Positions 5,735 through 33,019 of a stretch of DNA of 33,019 nucleotides are shown here, piece by piece. Under the pieces are notes generated by a model. That model worked only from the letters and a program-made list of their open reading frames with translations, did not search any database and was not told the DNA's origin. Source of the DNA: Kineococcus endophyticus. Lineage in GTDB: Bacteria; Actinomycetota; Actinomycetes; Actinomycetales; Kineococcaceae. The stretch is from positions 1 to 33,019 of the forward strand of contig NZ_JBFNQN010000022.1 of NCBI RefSeq assembly GCF_040796495.1, written 5' to 3'. Every line of letters starts with the position of its first letter. Position 1 is the first letter of the stretch. The translations under genes and the position numbers were made by a program.

Positions 5735-6646
5735 GTGCTCACGGCGGCCGACCTCGCGCGCGTCCACGACCTCGTGCGCGCCGAACCCGCCCTGGCGTCC
5801 TTCGCGGGTTCCGGCCCCCGGTCGATGCCGTGGGGCAGCGGGAGCGTGCACCTGATCGGGAACTGGGCGGATGCGGGTGTCGAGGTCCTGGTGAAGGTCG
5901 GCGCCTCACCGGCGCAGGTGGCGTGGACCCGGGAACTCGCGGGCTCGGAACCCTCCCTCGTCCCGCGGGTGTTCGCGGGCGGGCTCCGCCTCGCGGGAGC
6001 CGACCTGGGGTGGCTGGTGCTGGAACGCCTGCCCCACGGCCTGGACGGTGGCTGGGGCGGTGCGGAGTTGACCGCGCTGGTGGACGCCGGGGTGCGTTTC
6101 CAGCGGGCCGCCCGCGACGTCCGGCTGGCCGCCGGCGACCTCACCCGGGACCAGGTGCGCGACTGGATCGTCCTCGCACGGGACCGCGGAGCGCCCGGTC
6201 CCGTGGACGTCCTGCTCTCCCGGCTCGACGTCGACTGGGAACTCCTGGTCGAGATCTGCCCGCCCGAGGTCTGCCACGGCGACCTCCACCTCGCCAACGC
6301 CCTGGTGCGCGCGCCCGCCCCCGTCCGCTCGCCGGCGGTGCTCGTGGACTGCGAACCCTCCCGGATGTCGTGGGTCGTGGAGGCTGCGTACGCCCAGGTG
6401 CTGAACTCCGACCCGGCCCGACCCGGCTGGCGGGACCTGGCCGGCCTCATGGCCGGACGCCGCCGCGTCCAGGGCCTGGCGGTCGGCCGGGACGCCGACG
6501 TGCAGCGGGCCGCGTCCACCGCGCTGGCCTGGAACGCGCTGCGGTTGTGGGGAGTTCTCGGCCCCGTCCCGGACCCGGGGTGGCGGGCGGCGGCCGTGTG
6601 GGAGGAGTGGACGAGGAACTACGTCGATGCGGGGGTGTCGGTCTGA
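5735..6646 (+). CDS. Aminoglycoside phosphotransferase (APH)-fold kinase
   Basis: This 303-residue protein has a kinase fold. The catalytic loop HGDLHLAN is at 181-188 (catalytic Asp183 and metal-binding Asn188), and the metal-binding Asp205 lies in the following LVDCEP, where most family members have DFE or DWE. A Lys within VEVLVKVG near residue 55 could be the ATP-binding lysine. APH-family proteins phosphorylate small molecules such as aminoglycosides, choline, homoserine or fructosamines, and nothing here fixes the substrate, so resistance should not be assumed. It stands alone between a divergent methyltransferase and a downstream GrpB-family gene with its own probable promoter. Confidence 0.85.
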   Translation: MLTAADLARVHDLVRAEPALASFAGSGPRSMPWGSGSVHLIGNWADAGVEVLVKVGASPAQVAWTRELAGSEPSLVPRVFAGGLRLAGADLGWLVLERLPHGLDGGWGGAELTALVDAGVRFQRAARDVRLAAGDLTRDQVRDWIVLARDRGAPGPVDVLLSRLDVDWELLVEICPPEVCHGDLHLANALVRAPAPVRSPAVLVDCEPSRMSWVVEAAYAQVLNSDPARPGWRDLAGLMAGRRRVQGLAVGRDADVQRAASTALAWNALRLWGVLGPVPDPGWRAAAVWEEWTRNYVDAGVSV

Positions 6647-6668
6647 CGGTCGTCCCTGGCCGGCGGGC

Positions 6669-6674
6669 TACCGT
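6669..6674 (+). promoter_or_regulatory. Putative -10 element (TACCGT) of a leaderless promoter
   Basis: TACCGT sits 6 bases before GTG 6681, the start of the GrpB-family gene, which has no Shine-Dalgarno sequence. A CTGACG about 20 bases further upstream is a weak -35 candidate with a long spacer. Confidence 0.45.
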
Positions 6675-6680
6675 TCTCGG

Positions 6681-7283
6681 GTGCCCGGACCCGCTGTGCT
6701 GCGCCCCTACGACCCCGAGTGGCCGCTGCGAGCAGCCCGGCTCCTCGCCGACGTGCGGCGGGTCCTCGCGCCCCTCGGTGTGGCGGAGTCGTTCGAGCAC
6801 ATCGGGTCGACGTCGGTGCCCGGGTTGTCCGCGAAGGCCTACGTCGACCTGCAGGTGACGGTGATGGAACTCCCGGTCGCCGCGGCCCTCGTCGAGGCCC
6901 TGGCCCCGGTGGGTTTCGTCCCCGCGGTGGGAGCCCGTCCGGATTCTCCCGGCGTCCACCGCGACCTGCCGCGTGGTTCCGAGGTCGTCCCGGACGAGCT
7001 GTGGCGCAAACGCCTGTTCACCCGGGACGTCGACGGACCGGAGGCGTCCATCCTCCACGTGCGGCTCACCGCGTCACCCTGGGCGCGGTACACGGTCTGG
7101 TTCCGCGACTGGTTGCGCGCCCACCCCGAGGCGCGCGACCGGTACGCCGAGTTCAAGGCCGCGGTCGCGGTCGAGCACGCCGGGGACCCGGACTTCGACG
7201 ACTACACCCGCGCCAAGACGGAGTTCTTCGACGCGGTGCAGGAGGAGTTCGAGGCGTGGGGCCGTCAGAGGTCCCGACCCTGA
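6681..7283 (+). CDS. GrpB family protein (nucleotidyltransferase-like)
   Basis: This 200-residue protein has the family core: VLRPYDPEWP near the N-terminus, then FEHIGSTSVPGLSAKAYVDLQV, which matches the GrpB/UPF0157 nucleotidyltransferase-like signature (IGSTSVPGLxAKxxxDL). The C-terminal half has the usual FRDWLRAHPEARDRYAEFK and DDYTRAKTEFF segments. I chose GTG 6681 because the family homology begins directly after it and a -10-like hexamer lies just upstream, although the frame is open to 6627. No biochemical role is established for most members. A stand-alone gene of this kind may act on a coenzyme A-like or nucleotide substrate, but that is speculation. Confidence 0.88.
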   Translation: MPGPAVLRPYDPEWPLRAARLLADVRRVLAPLGVAESFEHIGSTSVPGLSAKAYVDLQVTVMELPVAAALVEALAPVGFVPAVGARPDSPGVHRDLPRGSEVVPDELWRKRLFTRDVDGPEASILHVRLTASPWARYTVWFRDWLRAHPEARDRYAEFKAAVAVEHAGDPDFDDYTRAKTEFFDAVQEEFEAWGRQRSRP

Positions 7284-7427
7284 CGCAGCTGGCTCGGCGT
7301 GCAGGGGCCTGGGGGCCGGGTCCTGCCGACGGTTCGGCACGCACCTCCTCGACGACGACCGCTGCGCCGCCGACGAAATCATCCGCCTCGTGCTCGACAC
7401 GAGGCGAACGGCGACGGCCCGTCCGGG

Positions 7428-8183
7428 TCAGCGGCCGAGGCTGGGAACAGTGGTGGTGGTTCCGTCGCGCCACACCACGAGGCCGGTGCGTCCGGGCCGC
7501 TCACCCAACCAGCGGGCGGCGTCCGCGTCGTGGGCGTAGGCGGCGGTGGCGTCGATGTCCGCCCACGTCAAGGAGCCGGCGACCACCGTCACCTGAGCGA
7601 CGGTCGTGGGGTGTCCTCCGGTGCGGGCGTCGACCAGGTGCTGCCCCCGGTGCGCGGTTCCCGACGTGGCGACGGCGCCGTTGGCGACCGGGACGGTCGC
7701 CAGCACGACGTGCGGGTCGAAGGGGTCCTCGATGCCGATCCGCCACGGTGGGCTGCCCCGACGGCTGCGGCACACCACGTCCCCGCCGCCGGACAGGCAG
7801 AAGTCGGTGTCGGGCAGCTGGCGCAGGTGGGCGGCGGCCCGCTGCAGGGCCCACCCCTTGACCACCCCGTTGGTGTCCAGGACGATCTCGCCGTCCTGCC
7901 CCCGTCGGTGGACGTCGAACGCGCCGTCGGACTCCCGGCGGGCCCGGTCGGCCAGGTCCACCACCTCCGCCACCTCCGGTGGGCAGTCCTGGAGTCCGAC
8001 GTCCCCTCGCCCCAGCCGGCTGATCCACGACTGCGGTCGGTAGGTGCTGAACACCTGGTCGACGTGGTGGAGGTCGGCCACCACCGACGCCCAGGCCCGG
8101 TGGCTCCGGTCGTCGTCGGCGTGCCGTCCGCGCAGGGCCAGGCTGACGGGGAACCCCATGACGTGGTCGACGTGCCGGACCAT
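7428..8183 (-). CDS. apbE: FAD:protein FMN transferase (ApbE family)
   Basis: This 251-residue ApbE-type enzyme moves FMN from FAD onto a Thr/Ser of a target protein, with Mg as cofactor. Visible family landmarks are FSTYRPQSWISRL near 45-57, DTNGVVKGWAL at 103-113 (the equivalent of the usual LGGIAKGYA), SGGGDVV at 131-137, HLVDARTG at 182-189, and WADIDATAAY at 207-216 carrying the Mg-binding acidic residues. It is shorter than lipoprotein ApbE proteins and has no signal peptide. Its ATG overlaps the stop of the FMN-binding protein gene by one base (TGATG). The neighbour is the obvious modification target. It is the last gene of the flavin module. Confidence 0.92.
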   Translation of the reverse strand: MVRHVDHVMGFPVSLALRGRHADDDRSHRAWASVVADLHHVDQVFSTYRPQSWISRLGRGDVGLQDCPPEVAEVVDLADRARRESDGAFDVHRRGQDGEIVLDTNGVVKGWALQRAAAHLRQLPDTDFCLSGGGDVVCRSRRGSPPWRIGIEDPFDPHVVLATVPVANGAVATSGTAHRGQHLVDARTGGHPTTVAQVTVVAGSLTWADIDATAAYAHDADAARWLGERPGRTGLVVWRDGTTTTVPSLGR

Positions 8184-25200: not shown

Positions 25201-25734
25201 TCAGCCCAGGCGGGTCGTGCCCGCGTACACGTGCAGGACGGGCACCCCGAGGCTGTCGCGCGCCCGCGAGGCCCAGTCGGCGTGGAACGTGTCCTCGACG
25301 GCGTGCGGGCGGGTCACGACGACGAGCTCGCGGGCGTCCGGCTCCTCGGCCAGCGCCGTGCGGACCGCTGGCAACGGGTCGTCCTCGGTGGTCCGGCCCT
25401 GTGCCGTGAGGCCCTCGGCGCGCAGGGCCTCGACCGTGGCGCGCAGGGCGGTCTCGGCGTCGGCGCGGGCCTCCTGGGCGTCCGGCCTCCCGGCGCGCAG
25501 GTCGGCGAGGGCCTCCTTCAGCTCCCCGAGGCTCAGCTTGTCGACGACGTCGGCGAGCAGGCTGCGCTGGGTGTCGGCCGGCACGAGGACGAGGTGGCGG
25601 ACGTCCTGCCCCTCGGCGCGTTCGGCGGCGTGCAGCTGCGCGACGTTGCGGGCGTCGACGTCGCCGAAGGCCTCCTCCGTGAGCACGACGACGGTCCAGG
25701 GCGCGGCGTGGGGCGACTCGTTCTCGGCAGGCAC
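25201..25734 (-). CDS. Conserved protein of unknown function (Rossmann-like, 177 residues)
   Basis: The protein begins MPAENESPHAAPWTVVVLTEEAFGDVDARNVAQLHAAE. Two halves of alternating strands and helices are visible: HLVLVPADTQRSLLADVVDKLSLGEL and, at the end, ELVVVTRPHAVEDTFHADWASRAR then VPVLHVYAGTT. This resembles a nucleotide-binding or universal-stress-like alpha/beta fold, but no P-loop or catalytic motif is seen and I name no family. GTG 25734 has a TAGGGT -10-like hexamer 7 bases upstream, which fixes the start in a frame open to 27273. The divergent DoxX-like gene begins 62 bases away. Confidence 0.75.
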   Translation of the reverse strand: MPAENESPHAAPWTVVVLTEEAFGDVDARNVAQLHAAERAEGQDVRHLVLVPADTQRSLLADVVDKLSLGELKEALADLRAGRPDAQEARADAETALRATVEALRAEGLTAQGRTTEDDPLPAVRTALAEEPDARELVVVTRPHAVEDTFHADWASRARDSLGVPVLHVYAGTTRLG

Positions 25735-25741
25735 GTCCGCG

Positions 25742-25747
25742 ACCCTA
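25742..25747 (-). promoter_or_regulatory. Putative -10 element (TAGGGT) of a leaderless promoter
   Basis: Read on the minus strand, TAGGGT lies 7 bases before GTG 25734, which has no Shine-Dalgarno sequence. Confidence 0.5.
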
Positions 25748-25795
25748 ACGGGGGCGGGTGCGCCCAGCAGCCCGGTGTCGGGCAGGATCGGGGCC

Positions 25796-26188
25796 GTGAT
25801 CGCGTCGACACCCCGGGGCCGGAGCAGTCGTGCGGTGCCGCGGTGGGTCGCTCCCGCGGCGCTCTTCGGCGTGGCCGGGGTGGCGCACTTCCTGCGCCCC
25901 CGCGGTTTCGACGTCATCGTCCCCCGGGCCCTGCCCGGGTCGGCGCGGGCCTGGACCCTGGCCTCGGGGGTCGCGGAGCTCGGCCTGGCGGCGGGGTACG
26001 CGGTGCCCGCGACGCGACGCGCCACCTCCCGTGCGGCGGCCGCATTCCTGGTGGCCGTGTGGCCCGCCAACGCCCAGATGGCCGTCGACGCCTGGCGATC
26101 CGGCTCCACCCGCGCCCGCGTCGTCACGACGGCCCGGCTGCCGCTGCAGGTCCCGCTGGTCCGGCTCGCCCTGCGGGGCGGTGCGTGA
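25796..26188 (+). CDS. DoxX/MauE-like small membrane protein
   Basis: The protein has 130 residues with three to four hydrophobic segments: WVAPAALFGVAGVAHFL, WTLASGVAELGLAAGYAV, and AAAFLVAVWPANAQMAVDAW. FGVAGVAHFLRPRGFDVIVPRALPG and ELGLAAGYAVPATR are typical of the small DoxX-like family (HxxxP-rich, Arg-rich loops). The family has no settled function; some members are linked to redox or sulphur chemistry. GTG 25796 is preceded by AGGA. It overlaps the hydrolase gene by 4 bases (GTGA) and is the first gene of the six-gene cluster. Confidence 0.8.
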   Translation: MIASTPRGRSSRAVPRWVAPAALFGVAGVAHFLRPRGFDVIVPRALPGSARAWTLASGVAELGLAAGYAVPATRRATSRAAAAFLVAVWPANAQMAVDAWRSGSTRARVVTTARLPLQVPLVRLALRGGA

Positions 26189-27357
26189 ACGGCCGCCGCG
26201 CCGCCGCGGTCGGGGCTGTCGCGACGGCCGCCGCCGCGACCCTGACGGGAGCCGCCCTGACGGCGACCGCGGTCTCCTTCGCCCGCGCCGTCGTGACCCC
26301 TCGCCGCCACAAGCCGGACGACCTCGAGGTCCTGCAGGTCGGCCCGCACCGCGTCGTGCTGTCGGCCACGGTCGACACGGTCGTTCCCGGCCGGTACGGC
26401 GTCTGGACCGACGGCGGCCGCGGGCACTTCCGGGTCGGGGAGGTCCTCGAGAGCCGCGAGGAGCGCGTCACGCGCGAGCTGCTCGGGGTCGACGCCGGAA
26501 CCCCCGCCCCGGGCCGGGCGCGCTGGAACCAGTACTACTTCGCCGGCGACCCGGCCGTGGCCCTCGGCCTGCCGCACGAGGACGTCCTCGTCCCCAGCGA
26601 CGTCGGTGCGCTGCCCTGCTGGTCGCTCCCGGGTCCCGTCGACGGCGGTTCCGACACCTGGGCCGTGCTCGTCCACGGTCGCGGGGCGACGCGCGAGGAG
26701 GCGCTGCGCGCCGTTCCCGTGCTGCACGCGCTGGGGGTGCCGTGCCTCGTCCCGGCCTACCGCAACGACGCCGACGCCCCGACCGTGAAACCCGGCCTGT
26801 ACGGCCTGGGCGACACCGAGTGGCGCGACGTCGAGGCCGTCGCCCGGTACGCCCTGGACCGCGGCGCGCGGCGGCTGCTGCTCGTCGGCTGGTCGATGGG
26901 CGGCGCGATCGTCCTGCAGTTCGTGGCCCGCTCGCCCCTGGCCGAGCACGTCACGGCCCTCGTGCTGGACGGTCCCGTCGTCGACTGGTTCGACGTGCTG
27001 GACCACCAGGCCCGCCAGGCCGGGGTTCCGGTCCGCCTGGGGCGCCTGGGGTTGCAGCTGCTCGGGCACCCCGTGGGCCGTCGCCTCGTGGGAGTCTCCG
27101 GCCCCGTCGACCTGCGGGCCATGGACTGGGTGCGCCGGGCCCAGGAACTGCAGCTGCCGGTCCTGCTCCTGCACTCCGACGCCGACGACTACGTGCCGTC
27201 CGGGCCGTCGCAGCGGCTGGCGCAGGCACGTCCGGACCTCATCACCTACGTCGCCAGCAGCACCGCGCGGCACACGAAGGAGTGGAACGTGGACCCGCAG
27301 GGCTGGGAGTCGGCCGTCCGGGAGTTCGTCACCTCACGGTTGGAGGCGGGCGCGTGA
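26185..27357 (+). CDS. Alpha/beta hydrolase with N-terminal membrane anchor or signal
   Basis: The protein has 390 residues. The first 35 residues form an Ala-rich hydrophobic segment, either an uncleaved anchor or a signal. The hydrolase domain starts near residue 155: VLVHGRGATREEALR, the nucleophile elbow VGWSMGGA with Ser237, an acid in LLLHSDADDYVPSGPS (Asp332 or Asp334), and His363 in STARHTKEWN. The N-terminal 40-140 part is a separate beta-rich region. Prolyl-oligopeptidase-like or acyl hydrolase activity is possible. GTG 26185 overlaps the previous stop by 4 bases, and the next gene overlaps this one by 4 bases, so it is in a translation-coupled operon. Confidence 0.88.
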   Translation: MNGRRAAAVGAVATAAAATLTGAALTATAVSFARAVVTPRRHKPDDLEVLQVGPHRVVLSATVDTVVPGRYGVWTDGGRGHFRVGEVLESREERVTRELLGVDAGTPAPGRARWNQYYFAGDPAVALGLPHEDVLVPSDVGALPCWSLPGPVDGGSDTWAVLVHGRGATREEALRAVPVLHALGVPCLVPAYRNDADAPTVKPGLYGLGDTEWRDVEAVARYALDRGARRLLLVGWSMGGAIVLQFVARSPLAEHVTALVLDGPVVDWFDVLDHQARQAGVPVRLGRLGLQLLGHPVGRRLVGVSGPVDLRAMDWVRRAQELQLPVLLLHSDADDYVPSGPSQRLAQARPDLITYVASSTARHTKEWNVDPQGWESAVREFVTSRLEAGA

Positions 27358-28331
27358 GCGTGGCGCACGCGCTGTGGACGACCGGGCCGGGTCAGGTCGA
27401 ACTGCGCGAGGAACTGCTGCCCGTGCTGGGCACCGCCGACGTGGAGATCCGGACGGAGTTCTCGGCCGTCAGCCGCGGGACCGAGGCCCTCGTCCTCGCC
27501 GGGGCGGTCCCCTCGAGCCAGCACGACACCATGCGGGCCCCGTTCCAGTCCGGGGAGTTCCCCTTCCCCGTGAAGTACGGGTACCTGTCCGTCGGCACCG
27601 TCGAGCAGGCCGGGCCACGGGCCCAGGACCTCGTGGGGCGCAGGGTGTTCTGCCTGCACCCCCACCAGGACCGGTACGTCGTGCCCGCCTCGTCCGTGCT
27701 GCCCGTGCCCGCCGCCGTGTCGCCCGGTCGGGCGGTGCTGGCCGGGATGCTGGAGACCGCGGTGAACGGCGTCTGGGACGCCGGTCTCGGCATCGGCGAC
27801 CGGGTCAGCGTCGTCGGTGCGGGGGTGCTCGGACTGCTCGTGGCGACGCTCGCCGCGCGCGTCCCGGGCACCGACGTCGCGGCCGTCGACGTGCGCACCG
27901 ACCGCGCGGGAACCGCGGAACGGCTCGGGTTCCGGCTCGTCGCGCCCGACGACGCGCGGCGCGAACGCGACGTCGTCCTGCACACCAGCGGAACGGGTCC
28001 GGGGCTCACGACGGGGTTGCAGCTGCTCGGCGACGAGGGCCTGCTGGCGGAGATGAGCTGGTACGGCGACCGCAGCGTGGAGGTCGGCTTGGGGGAGGGT
28101 TTCCACTCCCGGCGGCTGACGATCCGCGCGTCGCAGGTGGGGCGGGTCCCGCCGGCCCGTGCGCCGCGCTGGACGACGCGGCGCCGGCTCGCGCTGGCGC
28201 TGGACCTGTTGTGCGACGAGCGGTTCGACGCCCTGCTCGACGGGGTGACCCCGTTCGAGCGGTCCGCGGAGGTCCTGCCCGGGATCGCCGCCGTGGGCGG
28301 CGACGCCCTCTGCCACCGGTTCAGCTACTGA
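27354..28331 (+). CDS. MDR-type dehydrogenase (zinc-binding alcohol dehydrogenase-like)
   Basis: This 325-residue medium-chain dehydrogenase/reductase has the Rossmann motif [14 protein letters not shown] at 151-164. At the usual catalytic-zinc Cys position it has [14 protein letters not shown] (near 37-50), as in BchC-like and other SRGTE proteins, so classic zinc alcohol dehydrogenase chemistry is doubtful, although His102, His104 and Asp106 (LHPHQDR) and Glu134 may still coordinate a metal. The Cys-rich structural zinc loop is missing. GTG 27354 overlaps the hydrolase stop by 4 bases. The substrate is unknown; the neighbouring PTPS-fold, glycosyltransferase and methyltransferase genes point to one biosynthetic pathway. 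Confidence 0.88.
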
Positions 28332-28341
28332 GGAGTTCGGC

Positions 28342-28725
28342 ATGTTCTCGTTGACGGTCCGCGACCGGTTCATGGTGGCCCACAGCTTCACCGGAGAGGT
28401 GTTCGGCCCGGCCCAGCGCCTGCACGGCGCGACGTTCGTCGTCGAGGCGACGTTCCGGCGCGTCGAGCTCGACGGCGACGGCCTCGTCGTCGACATCGGC
28501 GTGGCGTCGCAGGTGCTGCGCGCGGTGCTCGCCCAGGTCGAGTACCGCAACCTCGACGACGTCGAGGAGTTCGCGGGGCAGAACACCTCCACCGAGTTCC
28601 TCTGCCGCTGGATCGCTGACCGCCTCTCGGTGGACCTGGGACCCGCCGTCACCGGGCTCGCAGGGATCACGGTGCTGTTGCGCGAGTCCGACGTGGCGTG
28701 GGCGGCGTACGAGAAGGAGCTGTGA
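28342..28725 (+). CDS. 6-pyruvoyl-tetrahydropterin synthase-fold protein with degenerate active site
   Basis: This 127-residue protein has the family length and layout: FMVAHSF with His14, [11 protein letters not shown] with His28, [20 protein letters not shown] and a late [11 protein letters not shown] (Glu near the pterin-binding position). Compared with QueD and PTPS from established knowledge, the catalytic Cys becomes Ala24, the second His of HGH (zinc ligand) becomes Ala30, and the Asp-His pair of LDHRYLN becomes Glu-Tyr (VEYRNLDD). Ordinary 6-carboxytetrahydropterin synthase activity is therefore unlikely. It sits 10 bases after the dehydrogenase gene and overlaps the glycosyltransferase by 4 bases. 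ATG 28342 has GAGGAG upstream. Confidence 0.85.
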
Positions 28726-29609
28726 GGTTCCTCCTCGCCCCCGACCTGTCGGCCCCGACGGGCGGGAACCGCTACGACGCCGAGCTCCTCGCCCGGGGGG
28801 TCGTGGACCGGGTCGTCGGATCGCTCGGCGAGGTTCCCGACGGGTCCTCGGTCCTGCTCGACGGTCTGCTGGCCTCCGCCCGCCCGGACCTGCTCGCCGC
28901 GCACTCCGGCCGCGTGCGGCTCGTCCTGCTCGTGCACCTGCTGCGCGCGGACGACGTCCCGCCCGAACCGGTCCTCGCCGAGGAGGTCCGGTCGCTGCGT
29001 CTCGTCGACGCGGTGGTCGTGCCGAGCCGCAGCGCCGCTCGACGGGTCCTCGAGGTCTCCGGGGTCCAGGCCGTCGTCGCCGAACCCGGGACGGCCCCGG
29101 CCCGCCCGTCGGTCGCCCGGGGGGCGCACCGCCTGCTGTCCGTGGGGACGGTCGGCGGGCGCAAGGGCCAGCGCCTCGTCGCCGAGGCCGTCGCCCGGCT
29201 CGGCGGCCCGTGGTCGTTGCGGTGCGCCGGGACCGTCGCCGAGGGTTTCGCCCTGCCGGGAACCACGTTGCTGGGGCCGGTCGACCACGCTGCGCTGCAG
29301 GCGGAGTGGGACCGGGCCGACCTGCACGTCCTGCTGTCGGAGTCCGAACCGTACGGGATGGCCGTCGCCGAGGGCCTGGTCCGCAGCGTCCCGTCCCTCG
29401 TGGCCGACCGCGGGGAACTGCCCGACCTCGTCGGGCCCGCCGGCATCGTCGTCGAGCCGGACGTCGACGCCGTCTGCGCCGCGCTGGGGCGGTGGGCCGG
29501 CTCGGCCGAGCTTCGGGTAGCCACGCGCCGGGCTGCGGCGGACCGGGAACTGGCGACGTGGGACGAGACCGCGCGGATCGTGAGGGAGACGTTGTGGACG
29601 AGACGGTGA
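28722..29609 (+). CDS. Glycosyltransferase family 4-like protein
   Basis: This 295-residue protein starts [22 protein letters not shown], with the usual acceptor-side Gly-rich loop. It then has [34 protein letters not shown] (the GRKGQ part binds nucleotide sugar) and, in the C-terminal domain, [13 protein letters not shown] with the E-x7-E motif (Glu209 and Glu217), all typical of retaining GT4 enzymes. It is short for the family (many are 350-400). The donor and acceptor are unknown. GTG 28722 overlaps the PTPS-fold gene stop by 4 bases, and the methyltransferase start lies inside this gene's end, so it is part of the coupled cluster. Confidence 0.88.
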
Positions 29610-30346
29610 CCGAGCTCGAGAACTTCGACCCCGACTGGCTGGCGCTGCGGGAACCCGTGGACCACGCCACGCGCTCCCGGCGCCTGGAGGGGTTGCTGGC
29701 GGCCCGGCTGACCGACCGGGAACGCGTGCGGGTCGTGGACCTCGGTGCCGGGTCGGGGTCCACCCTGCGCCACCTCGCCCCGCGGTTGCAGGAACTGGGC
29801 GTGGCGGCCGAGCAGGAGTGGGTGCTCGTCGACCACGACGAGGACCTCCTGGCCCGGGCGCTGGCGACCCCCGTTCCCGCGGCGGCCTCGGTCGCGACGG
29901 CGACCGTGGACCTCGCCGACCGGGACGCGGTGCGGGACGTGCTCTCCGGCGCGGACGTCGTCGTGGGGTCGGCCCTGCTCGACGTGCTGCCCGCGCCGGT
30001 CGCGACCGGTCTGGTCGAGGTGCTGTCGACCCTCGACCCGCGGCCGGCGGTGCTCTTCGTCCTCACCGTCGCAGGCGGAGCGACGAGCGAACCCGAGGTC
30101 CCGGGGGTCGCGGAGGGGTTCGACGCCGACCAGCGCGTCCACGGCCTCGGCCCGGACGCGACGGGTCACGTCGCCGACGCGTTCGCGGCCCACGGGTGGT
30201 CGGTGGAGCGCGAGGCGACACCGTGGCGTTTGAGCACCTCGCCCCTCCTGGACGCCTGGGCCGAGGGCTGGTTCGCCGCGGCCGGAGTGCCTGCGCAGCC
30301 GTTGTCCGCGGCCGTCGTCCCCCACGAGGACCTGCTGGCGCAGTGA
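29594..30346 (+). CDS. Class I SAM-dependent methyltransferase
   Basis: The protein has 250 residues. SAM-binding motif I is VVDLGAGSGSTLRHL at 47-61, followed by the acidic ribose-binding Asp80 in WVLVDHDEDLLARAL, then VVVGSALLDVLP. The N-terminal ENFDPDWLALREPVDHATRS is the family-specific entry segment. The last third is a helical tail ending VPHEDLLAQ. GTG 29594 has GGGAG 5 bases upstream inside the glycosyltransferase gene. The in-frame GTG at 29606 would give a 4-base GTGA overlap and is an alternative. It is the last gene of the six-gene plus-strand cluster; the next gene is convergent, with 4 bases between. Confidence 0.88.
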   Translation: MDETVTELENFDPDWLALREPVDHATRSRRLEGLLAARLTDRERVRVVDLGAGSGSTLRHLAPRLQELGVAAEQEWVLVDHDEDLLARALATPVPAAASVATATVDLADRDAVRDVLSGADVVVGSALLDVLPAPVATGLVEVLSTLDPRPAVLFVLTVAGGATSEPEVPGVAEGFDADQRVHGLGPDATGHVADAFAAHGWSVEREATPWRLSTSPLLDAWAEGWFAAAGVPAQPLSAAVVPHEDLLAQ

Positions 30347-30350
30347 GGGT

Positions 30351-31168
30351 TCAGGGCCGGCGCGCGACGAGGGAGAACATCAGGGGGCACTGCGCGGAAC
30401 CCTCCGGGAGTTCCCACCCCCGCCCGCCCCGCACCAGGGTGGGCAGCGCCTTCCACGGGATCGAGCGGTGTTCGTGGAAGGCCTCGATGCGCAGTCCCGC
30501 CGCCAGCAAGGAGTTCAGCACCTCACCGAGGTCGTGCGTCCACTGGTACGTGACGGCGTTCTGCATCCGGGTGTCGCTCGCGTAGGTGGTCCCGTCGTCG
30601 AACCGGCTCGGACCACCACCGGAGAAGTACGGCTCACCGAGGACCAGGAGGTCGTCGTCCCGGTCGTACTGCAGAGCACTCGTCGTCGGGTGGACGTCGT
30701 GGACGAGGAACACCCCACCCGGTCGCAGGAGACGCGCCACCGCCCGCGCCCACGCCGCAGGTCCGCCAGCCACGTGAACACCCCCACCGAGGTGAGCACC
30801 ACGTCGAACTGCCGGCCCAGGACGTCGGGGGCGTCCTCGTTGGCGGTCTGCACGAACGAGGCGTCCGGCAGTCCCGCCCGGGCGGCGAGCCGGCGGGCCG
30901 TCGCGACCGCCTCCCCGGACAGGTCCGTGCCGACCACCCGGGCGCCGCGGCGGGCGAGGCTGGTCGTGTCCGTGCCGATGTGGCACTGCAGGTGCACGAC
31001 GTCGAGACCGTCGAGGGAACCCCCGGGGAGGTGCGGGGCGAGGACCTCGGCCTCCACCTCGACCCCGACGGCGCTCGGATCGTCCGCGAAGGCCTCGGCG
31101 TCGTGGGCGACGACGTGGTCGGCGACGCGCTCGTCCCAGTTGCGCATGATGGCGGCGACGGGATCCAC
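30351..31168 (-). pseudogene. SAM-dependent methyltransferase gene with a frameshift
   Basis: The N-terminal half is read from ATG 31168 (MDPVAAIMRNWDERVADHVVAHD), with the SAM motif LQCHIGTDTTSLARRGARVVGTDLS, then DVVLTSVGVFTWLADL. The natural continuation (AWARAVARLLRPGGVFLVHDVHP and a C-terminal domain ending SLVARRP at 30351) is in another frame. The two halves join if one base is added near 30755-30760. As given, the protein would leave the family after about residue 137 and run to 217 residues. It may be a real 1-base deletion or a sequencing error. If intact it would be about 272 residues. Confidence 0.85.
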
Positions 31169-31177
31169 GGTGAGATC

Positions 31178-31495
31178 CTAGGCGCGACGCTGGGACTGGA
31201 GGCAGGGGACACACCCGCTGGCGTGCGGCAGGAACTCCAGACGTCCTGCCGGGATGGGACGGCGGCAGTGCACGCAAAACCCGAACTCACCCGCGTCCAT
31301 CCGGGCGAGGGCTTCCTCGACCTCCTGCAGGATGCGTCGCGCGCTGCCGATGCTAGCCGCGATCACCGGGTCGGTCTCCGCCGCCAGCAGTTCCTCGGCG
31401 GTGATCGACTGCAGGAGAACGCGACGGTCGTCTCGTGTCTCCTCGAGGGCCGTCCGCAGGTGGTCGTGATCGGTGTGGTGGGTCGTGGCGGTCAT
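31178..31495 (-). CDS. TraR/DksA-family zinc-finger protein
   Basis: This 105-residue protein has a coiled-coil-like N-terminal half (LRTALEETRDDRRVLLQSITAEELLAAE) and a C-terminal C4 zinc finger, CVHC...CVPC (FGFCVHCRRPIPAGRLEFLPHASGC), in the TraR/DksA arrangement. Such proteins bind RNA polymerase through the secondary channel, and in actinobacteria many are short paralogues of unknown target. The acidic DxxDxA tip of E. coli DksA is not obvious here. ATG 31495 has GGAG at 7 bases. It is 10 bases from the frameshifted methyltransferase gene, and a hairpin lies in its upstream leader. Confidence 0.88.
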   Translation of the reverse strand: MTATTHHTDHDHLRTALEETRDDRRVLLQSITAEELLAAETDPVIAASIGSARRILQEVEEALARMDAGEFGFCVHCRRPIPAGRLEFLPHASGCVPCLQSQRRA

Positions 31496-31719: not shown

Positions 31720-33019
31720 TCAGAACGGTGGCGGGTCGTCGGCCTCGCGGGCAGCGCGCAGCGCCGCGACCCGCCGCGCCCGGTCGTCGACGTGTTCCCA
31801 CACGAACTGCGTCTTGAACCGGTGGTGGGTCCGGCACAGGGCTTGGAGGTTGTCGGCGGTGGTGGGGCCTTCGGGCCAGGGGACGACGTGGTCCAGGTCG
31901 CAGTCCGCTGCCGGGCGCACGCACCCCGGGCCGCGGCACGTCTCGTCGCGGGCGACGACGAACCGGCGCAACGCCGCGGAGGGGCGGTAGACGTCGGCGG
32001 CGATGTCGATCACCTCCCGGGTGCCGGGGGCGGTGACGACCTTGCGCCAGGTGGCGTCGGGGTCGGCGGCCAGTTCCCGCGCCGTCTTGATGGACACCGG
32101 GCCGAGGCCGTCGACCCACGCCGCGTTCTCGGGAAGTTCCCCACCGTTGTCCTCGTCGGTACCGAACAGGGTGGTCGCGTCGACGCGCAGCAGGACGTGG
32201 ACGCTGGTCGCGGGCCGGTGACTGCGGCCGGTCGTCACCGGGTGGTCCTCGTCAGCGGGCTGCTGGTGGGCTTGGTCGGAGGTGGCGGGGGTCCACCGCG
32301 TGAGGCCGTCGCGCAGGACGTCGACGAGGGCGTCGTTGACCCTGGTGGCGTGGTCGCGGGTGTCGTGCAGGCCGTGGGCCTTGGTGTGGTCGGTGGTGGC
32401 GTCGGCGCAGGCGGTGGCGAACGTCATCAACCGCCGGCCCAGGCCGAGGGGGAGTTCGAGGGACAGGTGGGCGCTGGCGCCGTCCTCGCAGTCGGTCAGG
32501 ACCGCTTCGCGGCCGGGCCGTCGGGTGTGGCGGACGACGCGTTCGTGGTGCGGGGTCATCCGTTCCAGCAGCCGGAAGCAGCGGCCGTGCAGGGCCGAGC
32601 CGACCTTGCCCTCGCGGGCCCAGGTCAGGGCGGTGGTGTGGAACCGGTCCAGGGCCTGAGCGAGAGCCTCACCGTCGAGGAGCGCGGGACCTTCGGTGAC
32701 CTCCCCGTCGGCGTCTGCGGCGAGGGTCCCGGTGTGGGCGGCGAGGCGGCGGGACTGGGCCAGGATGGTGCGGGCTTGGCGGGCGGTGACCTGTCCGGCG
32801 GCGACGGCTTCCCACACGGGCCGTTCGACGGTGCCGGCGGTGTGGGCGGTCCAGACGTGGGTGAGGGCGGACTCGATGGGGACGCCGCAGCTGCGGGAGT
32901 GGTGCAGGGCGACCAGTTCGATCGCCGCCTGCAGTGGGGTCCAGGCCGCGAAGGGGTGGCCGTGGTGGCGGCCCATGATCTGGATGCGGCGGTCGGACAG
33001 TTCCCCGGCCTGGTCGGGG
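31720..33019 (-). CDS. DUF222 domain HNH endonuclease (5' end outside the window)
   Basis: At least 431 residues are visible, and the frame is still open at the right edge, so the start lies beyond 33019. The long N-terminal part is the helical DUF222 region (TARQARTILAQSRRLAAHTG, LERMTPHHERVVRHTRR). The C-terminus holds the HNH nuclease: CRGPGCVRPAADCDLDHVVPWPEGPTTADNLQALCRTHHRFKT, with Cys pairs for zinc, the catalytic-type DHV and the NLQALCRTHH signature. Such genes occur in multiple copies in many actinobacterial genomes, and neither a mobile-element role nor a restriction role is established by this sequence. It ends 224 bases before the TraR/DksA-like start. Confidence 0.9.
   Translation of the reverse strand, partial: PDQAGELSDRRIQIMGRHHGHPFAAWTPLQAAIELVALHHSRSCGVPIESALTHVWTAHTAGTVERPVWEAVAAGQVTARQARTILAQSRRLAAHTGTLAADADGEVTEGPALLDGEALAQALDRFHTTALTWAREGKVGSALHGRCFRLLERMTPHHERVVRHTRRPGREAVLTDCEDGASAHLSLELPLGLGRRLMTFATACADATTDHTKAHGLHDTRDHATRVNDALVDVLRDGLTRWTPATSDQAHQQPADEDHPVTTGRSHRPATSVHVLLRVDATTLFGTDEDNGGELPENAAWVDGLGPVSIKTARELAADPDATWRKVVTAPGTREVIDIAADVYRPSAALRRFVVARDETCRGPGCVRPAADCDLDHVVPWPEGPTTADNLQALCRTHHRFKTQFVWEHVDDRARRVAALRAAREADDPPPF

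Follow-up and report, generated by a model that had tools for sequence, protein, structure and literature searches.

The window analysed here is the whole of a 33,019-nt stretch of Kineococcus endophyticus DNA (RefSeq assembly GCF_040796495.1, contig NZ_JBFNQN010000022.1, positions 1 to 33,019), contig C22 of a 5.04-Mb genome; Kineococcus belongs to the Kineosporiales. Near its end lie six open reading frames (ORFs), all open on the + strand, which a preliminary description had read as one translation-coupled cluster for a glycosylated, methylated, possibly pteridine- or deazapurine-like molecule. The close joining of the genes was described correctly: of the five junctions, four are 4-nt GTGA overlaps and the fifth is a 10-nt gap. 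The last four genes (27354-30346) are in our judgment a good deal likelier than not to be the core of a conserved pathway from guanosine triphosphate (GTP), whose early steps would come from genes that are linked to the core in many relatives and unlinked here. The features are as follows, PTPS standing for 6-pyruvoyl tetrahydropterin synthase and SAM for S-adenosylmethionine.

25796-26188 (+): DoxX-like small protein, so named in the preliminary description, with no family match; a neighbour outside the conserved module
26185-26188 (+): 4-nt GTGA overlap of the DoxX-like and hydrolase genes
26185-27357 (+): alpha/beta hydrolase, a genus-conserved neighbour outside the module
27354-27357 (+): 4-nt GTGA overlap of the hydrolase and dehydrogenase genes
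27354-28331 (+): MDR-superfamily dehydrogenase, BchC-like, without the zinc-ADH (alcohol dehydrogenase) signature; first gene of the conserved module
28332-28341 (+): 10-nt gap between the dehydrogenase and PTPS genes
28342-28725 (+): PTPS-fold protein of SCO6650 type, with HGA replacing HGH, no catalytic Cys/His, and the presumed pterin-binding Glu115 kept
28722-28725 (+): 4-nt GTGA start/stop overlap of the PTPS and GT4 genes
28722-29609 (+): GT4 family glycosyltransferase with an E-x7-E motif (E209, E217)
29606-29609 (+): 4-nt GTGA start/stop overlap of the GT4 and methyltransferase genes
29606-30346 (+): putative class I SAM methyltransferase of its own subfamily, with Pfam matches below cut-off

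Relatives of the PTPS gene were confirmed at no fewer than 126 loci, the best 80 of which form the named set; it is dominated by Acetobacteraceae, and consists mostly of these and other Rhodospirillales. Counts are limited to loci with enough flanking sequence, which left out eight of the 80 for the dehydrogenase, seven for GT4, 11 for the methyltransferase, and 17 for all four genes together. Directly upstream of PTPS, 71 of 72 testable loci have the dehydrogenase in the same orientation; GT4 is directly downstream in 71 of 73, and the methyltransferase is in place in 64 of 69; the complete order dehydrogenase-PTPS-GT4-methyltransferase is intact in 59 of 63. The four misses are L058, L063, and L078, with no methyltransferase match, and L070, with no match for either GT4 or methyltransferase. 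Among the 59 are loci from Alphaproteobacteria, Gammaproteobacteria (Thioalkalivibrio, Marinobacter, Xanthomonas), Acidobacteriota (L004), and one member of the Actinomycetota (L057). The same order is found in Streptomyces-like genomes and, with short flanks, in Wenzhouxiangella (L003) and a member of the Gemmatimonadota (L005); spacing differs in the deltaproteobacterial L020. A divergent family, designated f19, for which seven loci were fetched (L126-L132), has the four core genes plus a RibD_C reductase in all seven. The module is thus scattered over several bacterial phyla and is not common, and the order of its four genes is far from chance. The PTPS-fold and glycosyltransferase genes, treated from the start as belonging together, are conserved together and in one order beyond this strain.

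The two upstream genes behave differently. None of the 48 testable named loci has either DoxX or the hydrolase within 8 kb of PTPS, and the two adjoin core genes only within the genus; the nearest named locus, Kineococcus siccus L010, likewise has DoxX, the hydrolase, and, upstream of them, the divergent gene, and its short flank places it outside the 48. Among 11 genus genomes (a small sample), the hydrolase is found in 10, with or without PTPS. Since both genes are also kept in two genomes that have no PTPS (G403 and G399), they are best seen as a separate, genus-level neighbour unit, and were rejected as pathway members; the export or membrane end proposed for them is not supported, and the six-gene cluster survives as a unit only in its four-gene core. 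To judge by the GTGA overlaps, the DoxX-hydrolase unit is probably on the same transcript as the module. The divergent gene at 25201-25734 (-) has no match in Pfam or NCBIfam. The order HemQ, MsrB, divergent gene, DoxX, hydrolase is kept in five of six genus loci, the contig of the sixth being too short to tell.

The proteins of the cluster were compared with the Pfam and NCBIfam libraries. The hydrolase (Hydrolase_4, 4.4e-11), the PTPS-fold protein (Pfam PTPS, 3.6e-24), and the glycosyltransferase (group 1 domain, 6.7e-10) score above cut-off and keep the names first given to them; the dehydrogenase and methyltransferase match only below curated cut-offs, and the name DoxX is unproven, there being no family match at E<=0.01 in either library. 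The dehydrogenase has its nearest MDR match in BchC (2.4e-19), with 69.6 bits against a cut-off of 291.25 for the BchC equivalog TIGR01202. Zinc MDR alcohol dehydrogenases have a catalytic Cys in a CGxD-type motif and a GHE motif; in 105 sequences of the dehydrogenase, CG[TS][DE] occurs in two and GHE in six, an SRGTE-type motif in 100 and YGY in 98, so that a zinc-dependent MDR enzyme is not indicated. GT4 membership of the glycosyltransferase is borne out by E209 and E217, which do not vary in any of the 23 aligned sequences. A profile search of solved structures placed it nearest to Tll1590 (presumably a sucrose-phosphate synthase) and to inositol-phosphate and phosphatidylinositol-mannoside transferases, as general relatives only. 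The best Pfam match of the methyltransferase reaches 23.6 bits (8.7e-5) against a cut-off of 30. G49 and G51 of its glycine-rich motif are invariant in 23 sequences; no solved relative was found with the single sequence, and a profile gave weak, general relatives only.

For the PTPS-fold protein, both NCBIfam PTPS/QueD models score below cut-off (42.3 against 89.25 and 27.6 against 125.5). It was aligned with relatives for a total of 119 sequences: 98 with HGA, 20 with HGH, and one fragment, some of which may derive from overlapping loci. Where QueD has its nucleophile Cys, Ala stands in 97 of 98 HGA sequences (Ser in the other) and in all 20 of the HGH type; the QueD reference 4ntk itself also shows Ala there. 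The catalytic His position is Tyr in 97 of 98 HGA and 17 of 20 HGH sequences, with Met or Phe in the others; and the third zinc-ligand His is Ala in 98 of 98 HGA sequences, with the other two zinc His residues kept. The presumed pterin-binding Glu, which we take to be the residue that holds the pterin in PTPS enzymes, is kept in 119 of 119. One paper (PMC5041015) gives signatures of CxxxHGH for PTPS-I/QueD, CxxxxxHGH for PTPS-II, and ExxHGH for PTPS-III. The first is present in 12 of 12 QueD-type comparison sequences (L204-L215), and none of the three in the window protein. These 12 are what remained of 16 weak places after leaving out two with no reading frame, one outlier, and one in f19; in a tree they form a clade (95/98) apart from the HGA clade (99/99) and the f19 HGH clade (99/98).

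With the COG0720 enzymes (PTPS-I/QueD, PTPS-II, and PTPS-III) the window protein therefore shares the Pfam PTPS family, two of three zinc His residues, and the Glu, but not their signatures or catalytic His, and it lies in a separate clade. Assignment as a QueD or PTPS was rejected, and the general rule that PTPS-fold enzymes make pterin or deazapurine precursors is not simply transferable to a protein in which the catalytic Cys and His and one zinc ligand are missing. Among solved chains, the window protein comes closest to SCO6650 from Streptomyces coelicolor (PDB 3d7j), which belongs to the same family (E 4e-47) and was deposited as uncharacterized. SCO6650 has the same HGA and Tyr replacements, which makes the window protein one of SCO6650 type, and its catalytic and metal positions differ solely at the variable residue preceding the Tyr. 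Its authors reportedly found a pterin-type pocket but neither zinc nor PTPS activity, and the sequence is in keeping with this. The f19 PTPS-fold proteins (L126-L132) keep HGH but not the catalytic Cys/His.

A deazapurine product of the preQ0 or queuosine kind, allowed for in the preliminary description, is hardly credible given this active site, although the fold would suit it. QueC-type (checked in L019) and QueG-type (checked in L027) families do occur upstream of the module, at a distance of a few genes, in eight of the 80 named loci (L016, L019, L027, L031, L037, L038, L047, and L061), with a possible queuosine-precursor transporter in L047, but all eight are Pseudoroseomonas or Roseomonas, and there is no QueE/ToyC-type gene among the annotated recurrent families. 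A search of the genome itself with the window protein at E<=0.001 found no second QueD/PTPS homologue, although a strongly diverged QueD could escape it. The functional QueD with QueE and QueC partners of a preQ0/queuosine pathway is thus not seen here.

Partner genes were counted within 8 kb of PTPS in the 48 named loci with long flanks, from sequence matches rather than clustered families; one such cluster (Louvain family 9) was rejected as a single family, as it held CDP-alcohol phosphotransferases together with an FkbM methyltransferase. The most frequent extra gene by far is a RibD_C reductase (Pfam PF01872), in 47 of 48 loci; a CDP-alcohol phosphotransferase is found in 12, and the flippase-like LPG_synthase_TM in four. 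A second set, L118-L125, comprises the eight loci with the best HGA-type matches of the phylum sample outside the genome studied here (seven belong to the same class and one to the same order; a ninth, L133, was too short and is not counted), six of which (L119-L124) are Streptomyces-like, to judge by visual comparison of the PTPS sequence with SCO6650. Here GTP cyclohydrolase II is found in seven of eight, a creatininase-family amidohydrolase in six, and CDP-alcohol phosphotransferase and LPG_synthase_TM in seven each. A third set, L157-L163, comes from seven of the ten further same-order genomes with a strong dehydrogenase match, and has RibD_C in six of seven loci. The five of these with long flanks have RibD_C in five, CDP-alcohol phosphotransferase in five, cyclohydrolase II in three, LPG_synthase_TM in three, and creatininase in none. 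The seven f19 loci have none of cyclohydrolase II, creatininase, CDP-alcohol phosphotransferase, or LPG_synthase_TM. The extra members suggested at the outset (a GTP cyclohydrolase, a RibD-like reductase, and an amidohydrolase) do therefore recur, in the form of RibD_C, cyclohydrolase II, and creatininase; each of the latter two is limited to a minority of the named loci.

Genes that could supply a precursor, recorded as absent from the window, are on another contig of the same genome: a cyclohydrolase II-RibD_C pair on C17 (matches 68765-69373 and 67991-68629), 58% identical to a fused protein of L057. There is a second, ordinary-looking match on C16, and the genome also has two CDP-alcohol phosphotransferases, at 47-48%. 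The C17 reductase consists of a RibD_C domain with no deaminase domain, as in a stand-alone diaminopyrimidine reductase of the archaeal/fungal type; its nearest PDB entry is a 2,5-diamino-6-ribosylamino-4(3H)-pyrimidinone 5'-phosphate reductase (6p8c), and it reaches 93.3 of the 186.45 bits that the NCBIfam equivalog TIGR01508 calls for.

Joint action of the window operon and the C17 pair is argued for most strongly by their co-occurrence in the genus. PTPS is present in five of the 11 genomes (G000, G396, G397, G400, and G401), and the module-type RibD_C (E 4e-88 or better) in exactly these five, the best matches in the others being 7e-25 to 2e-4; cyclohydrolase II adjoins RibD_C in all five. 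CDP-alcohol phosphotransferase is found in the five and in G404, there as a weaker match with an internal stop. One-sided Fisher tests against PTPS gave 0.002 for RibD_C, 0.013 for CDP-alcohol phosphotransferase, and 0.045 for the dehydrogenase, and 0.55 for both the hydrolase and a photolyase-related gene. A one-gene tree of the hydrolase (ten genomes) pairs PTPS-positive with PTPS-negative genomes (G400/G403, G396/G402, G397/G404), so that the joint PTPS/RibD_C pattern needs several gains or losses and is not that of one clade. At the order level RibD_C co-occurrence is obscured, with ordinary RibD proteins scoring in the same range.

The photolyase-related gene offers another reason for the C17 pair, which could serve this neighbour and not the window operon: a lumazine antenna occurs in the PF04244 photolyase-related family. 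The gene is beside the pair in four of the five genus genomes that have the pair, and the fifth locus is too short to show it. It is present in 10 of 11 genus genomes, however, and the pair only in the five with PTPS; this explanation was rejected as very unlikely. In L116 the photolyase-related gene is at 6039-7562.

The gene families that recur with the module are those that begin the riboflavin pathway: GTP cyclohydrolase II, a formamidase (BrbF/ArfB), and a RibD reductase. The module differs in that its RibD_C is reductase-only, that PTPS-fold, glycosyltransferase, and methyltransferase genes are added, and that no lumazine or riboflavin synthase is found among the annotated recurrent families. 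Reportedly (Spoonamore, in 2006), a Met in S. coelicolor SCO6655 stops the cyclohydrolase at the formylated product. At the corresponding position, Tyr105 in E. coli, Met is found in six of six Streptomyces-like cyclohydrolases, all six beside a creatininase. Of the other 12 cyclohydrolase ORFs, 11 have Tyr and one is unreadable. BrbF, a creatininase-family enzyme, deformylates the formylated cyclohydrolase product (PMC9478397); the creatininase-family protein of the relatives scores 37.1 bits against 180 for the ArfB model. Tyr is kept in five of five genus cyclohydrolases, and the combination of Tyr with no creatininase in the genome studied here is as a Met/creatininase pairing would predict.

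From the gene set, its order, its co-occurrence, and the active-site changes observed, we infer substrates, a reaction order, and a product as follows. GTP would be opened by GTP cyclohydrolase II, and the leftover formyl group removed by the creatininase-type amidohydrolase where this is present. The stand-alone RibD_C would then reduce the ribose to ribitol, giving 2,5-diamino-6-ribitylamino-4(3H)-pyrimidinone phosphate, which, in the absence of a deaminase domain, should still have its 2-amino group. The PTPS-fold protein, presumably incapable of PTPS or QueD chemistry, may bind the 2-amino-4-oxo-pyrimidine edge through its conserved Glu. By oxidising a side-chain alcohol, and so re-oxidising the ribityl chain, the dehydrogenase could permit the ring to close and a pterin to form with no need for GTP cyclohydrolase I; alternatively, the core might be a ribityl-pyrimidine instead, glycosylated and methylated in turn. 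GT4 would add the sugar, and the methyltransferase would cap the molecule. The product is thus probably a sugar-bearing, methylated pterin- or pyrimidine-like molecule. As PTPS and the glycosyltransferase are conserved together and precursor-type partners recur, the first proposal is well motivated as to a GTP-derived, glycosylated, methylated small molecule; its deazapurine alternative is not.

Several observations weigh against a pathway of this kind. The full-length HGA form is found in only nine of the 396 genomes of the phylum sample, the present one included (PTPS matches occur in 110 of the 396, a number that includes plain QueD proteins, as the weak QueD-type sequences form a separate clade). 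Cyclohydrolase II is within 8 kb of PTPS in just six of the 48 named loci and creatininase in four; RibD_C is linked in one of the eight loci L118-L125; and in L125 and L161 both RibD_C and cyclohydrolase II are missing from the neighbourhood. No creatininase was found in the genome studied here, by a search whose control matched in six of 14 genomes. Creatininase is present in L002-L004 although the cyclohydrolase keeps Tyr (three of 11 Tyr forms, against six of six Met forms), so that Met and creatininase go together as a Streptomyces-like pattern and no more; a general rule that loss of Tyr105 goes with creatininase was rejected, as it holds one way only. Finally, G403 and G399 keep DoxX-hydrolase-dehydrogenase in genomes without PTPS and at loci without GT4 and methyltransferase, and the dehydrogenase may therefore have another role.

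Pterin glycosides suggest a different precursor. A product of the cyanopterin or limipterin type could be made from dihydroneopterin triphosphate via GTP cyclohydrolase I, with RibD_C as a pterin reductase and cyclohydrolase II incidental. The precursor route to the Chlorobium and cyanobacterial compounds is FolE/PTPS/sepiapterin reductase, and the pteridine glycosyltransferases of these organisms would carry out the same kind of step as that proposed for GT4. A FolB-type gene (Pfam-checked in L130) is beside the module in seven of seven f19 loci, where the PTPS-fold protein keeps HGH. PMC5683033 describes a Chlorobium pteridine glycosyltransferase that makes such a pterin glycoside, and cyanobacterial counterparts appear by name in the titles of cited references. 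There is no GTP cyclohydrolase I among the annotated neighbour families, however, and it is the cyclohydrolase II-RibD_C pair that tracks PTPS in the genus, so we consider this origin unlikely, though not far-fetched. An acyltransferase-type gene is also beside the module in seven of seven f19 loci; its identity as FolE was rejected, Pfam giving acyltransferase (L131).

The pathway from cyclohydrolase II and RibD_C may have a further, membrane-bound part: the CDP-alcohol phosphotransferase could join the glycosylated pterin or pyrimidine alcohol to a lipid, which LPG_synthase_TM would flip. This addition is possible but doubtful. The phosphotransferase co-occurs with PTPS in the genus and, as counted above, is a neighbour of the core in 12 of the 48 named loci, seven of eight in L118-L125, and five of five long-flank same-order loci; LPG_synthase_TM is there in four, seven, and three. 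The motif DGxxAR...GxxxDxxxD is found in 44 of 50 phosphotransferase sequences (overlapping loci included), and of the six misses five are cut by the locus end and one (L074) is full-length. Neither gene is linked in most Acetobacteraceae loci or in any f19 locus, however; both families act on a variety of substrates, and the phosphotransferase scores only weakly against curated models. It is to these two genes, and no others, that a membrane role would be due.

In 1-kb bins the cluster has a GC content of 0.73-0.77, about the same as elsewhere in the window. A scan of 25600-30520 gave neither a sigma-70-like promoter nor a terminator-like site, and the window has no tRNA genes and no Rfam families at gathering score. 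Convergent to the cluster, at 30351-31277 (-), is a methyltransferase-like gene whose reading is divided between two frames that overlap, 30515-31168 and 30351-31277, as though by a frameshift. This could be a draft-assembly error; neither frame was matched in the five genus loci searched. The window also has a DksA/TraR zinc-finger gene (31178-31495) and, close by, an ORF at 31720-32976 (-) that by eye has the appearance of an HNH/DUF222-type gene.

One structure and some single enzymes were known already. No description of the set as a pathway, or of its product, was found in the open-licence literature, although a subscription paper could exist. At its most speculative, and we think improbably, the module might represent a second bacterial route from GTP to pterins, without GTP cyclohydrolase I, in which a ribityl-diaminopyrimidine made by cyclohydrolase II and the reductase has its side chain re-oxidised by the dehydrogenase and its ring held, or closed, by a PTPS-fold protein whose metal site is broken. 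The glycosylated, methylated product would in some lineages be attached to lipid by a dedicated CDP-alcohol phosphotransferase as a pterin-bearing membrane lipid. The module is found in unrelated phyla, and yet its PTPS-fold protein is listed in Pfam under 6-pyruvoyl tetrahydropterin synthase, an enzyme whose catalytic residues are missing from it. From the gene set as a whole come a proposed precursor and a few candidate products, and a role for SCO6650, solved yet uncharacterized, would follow.

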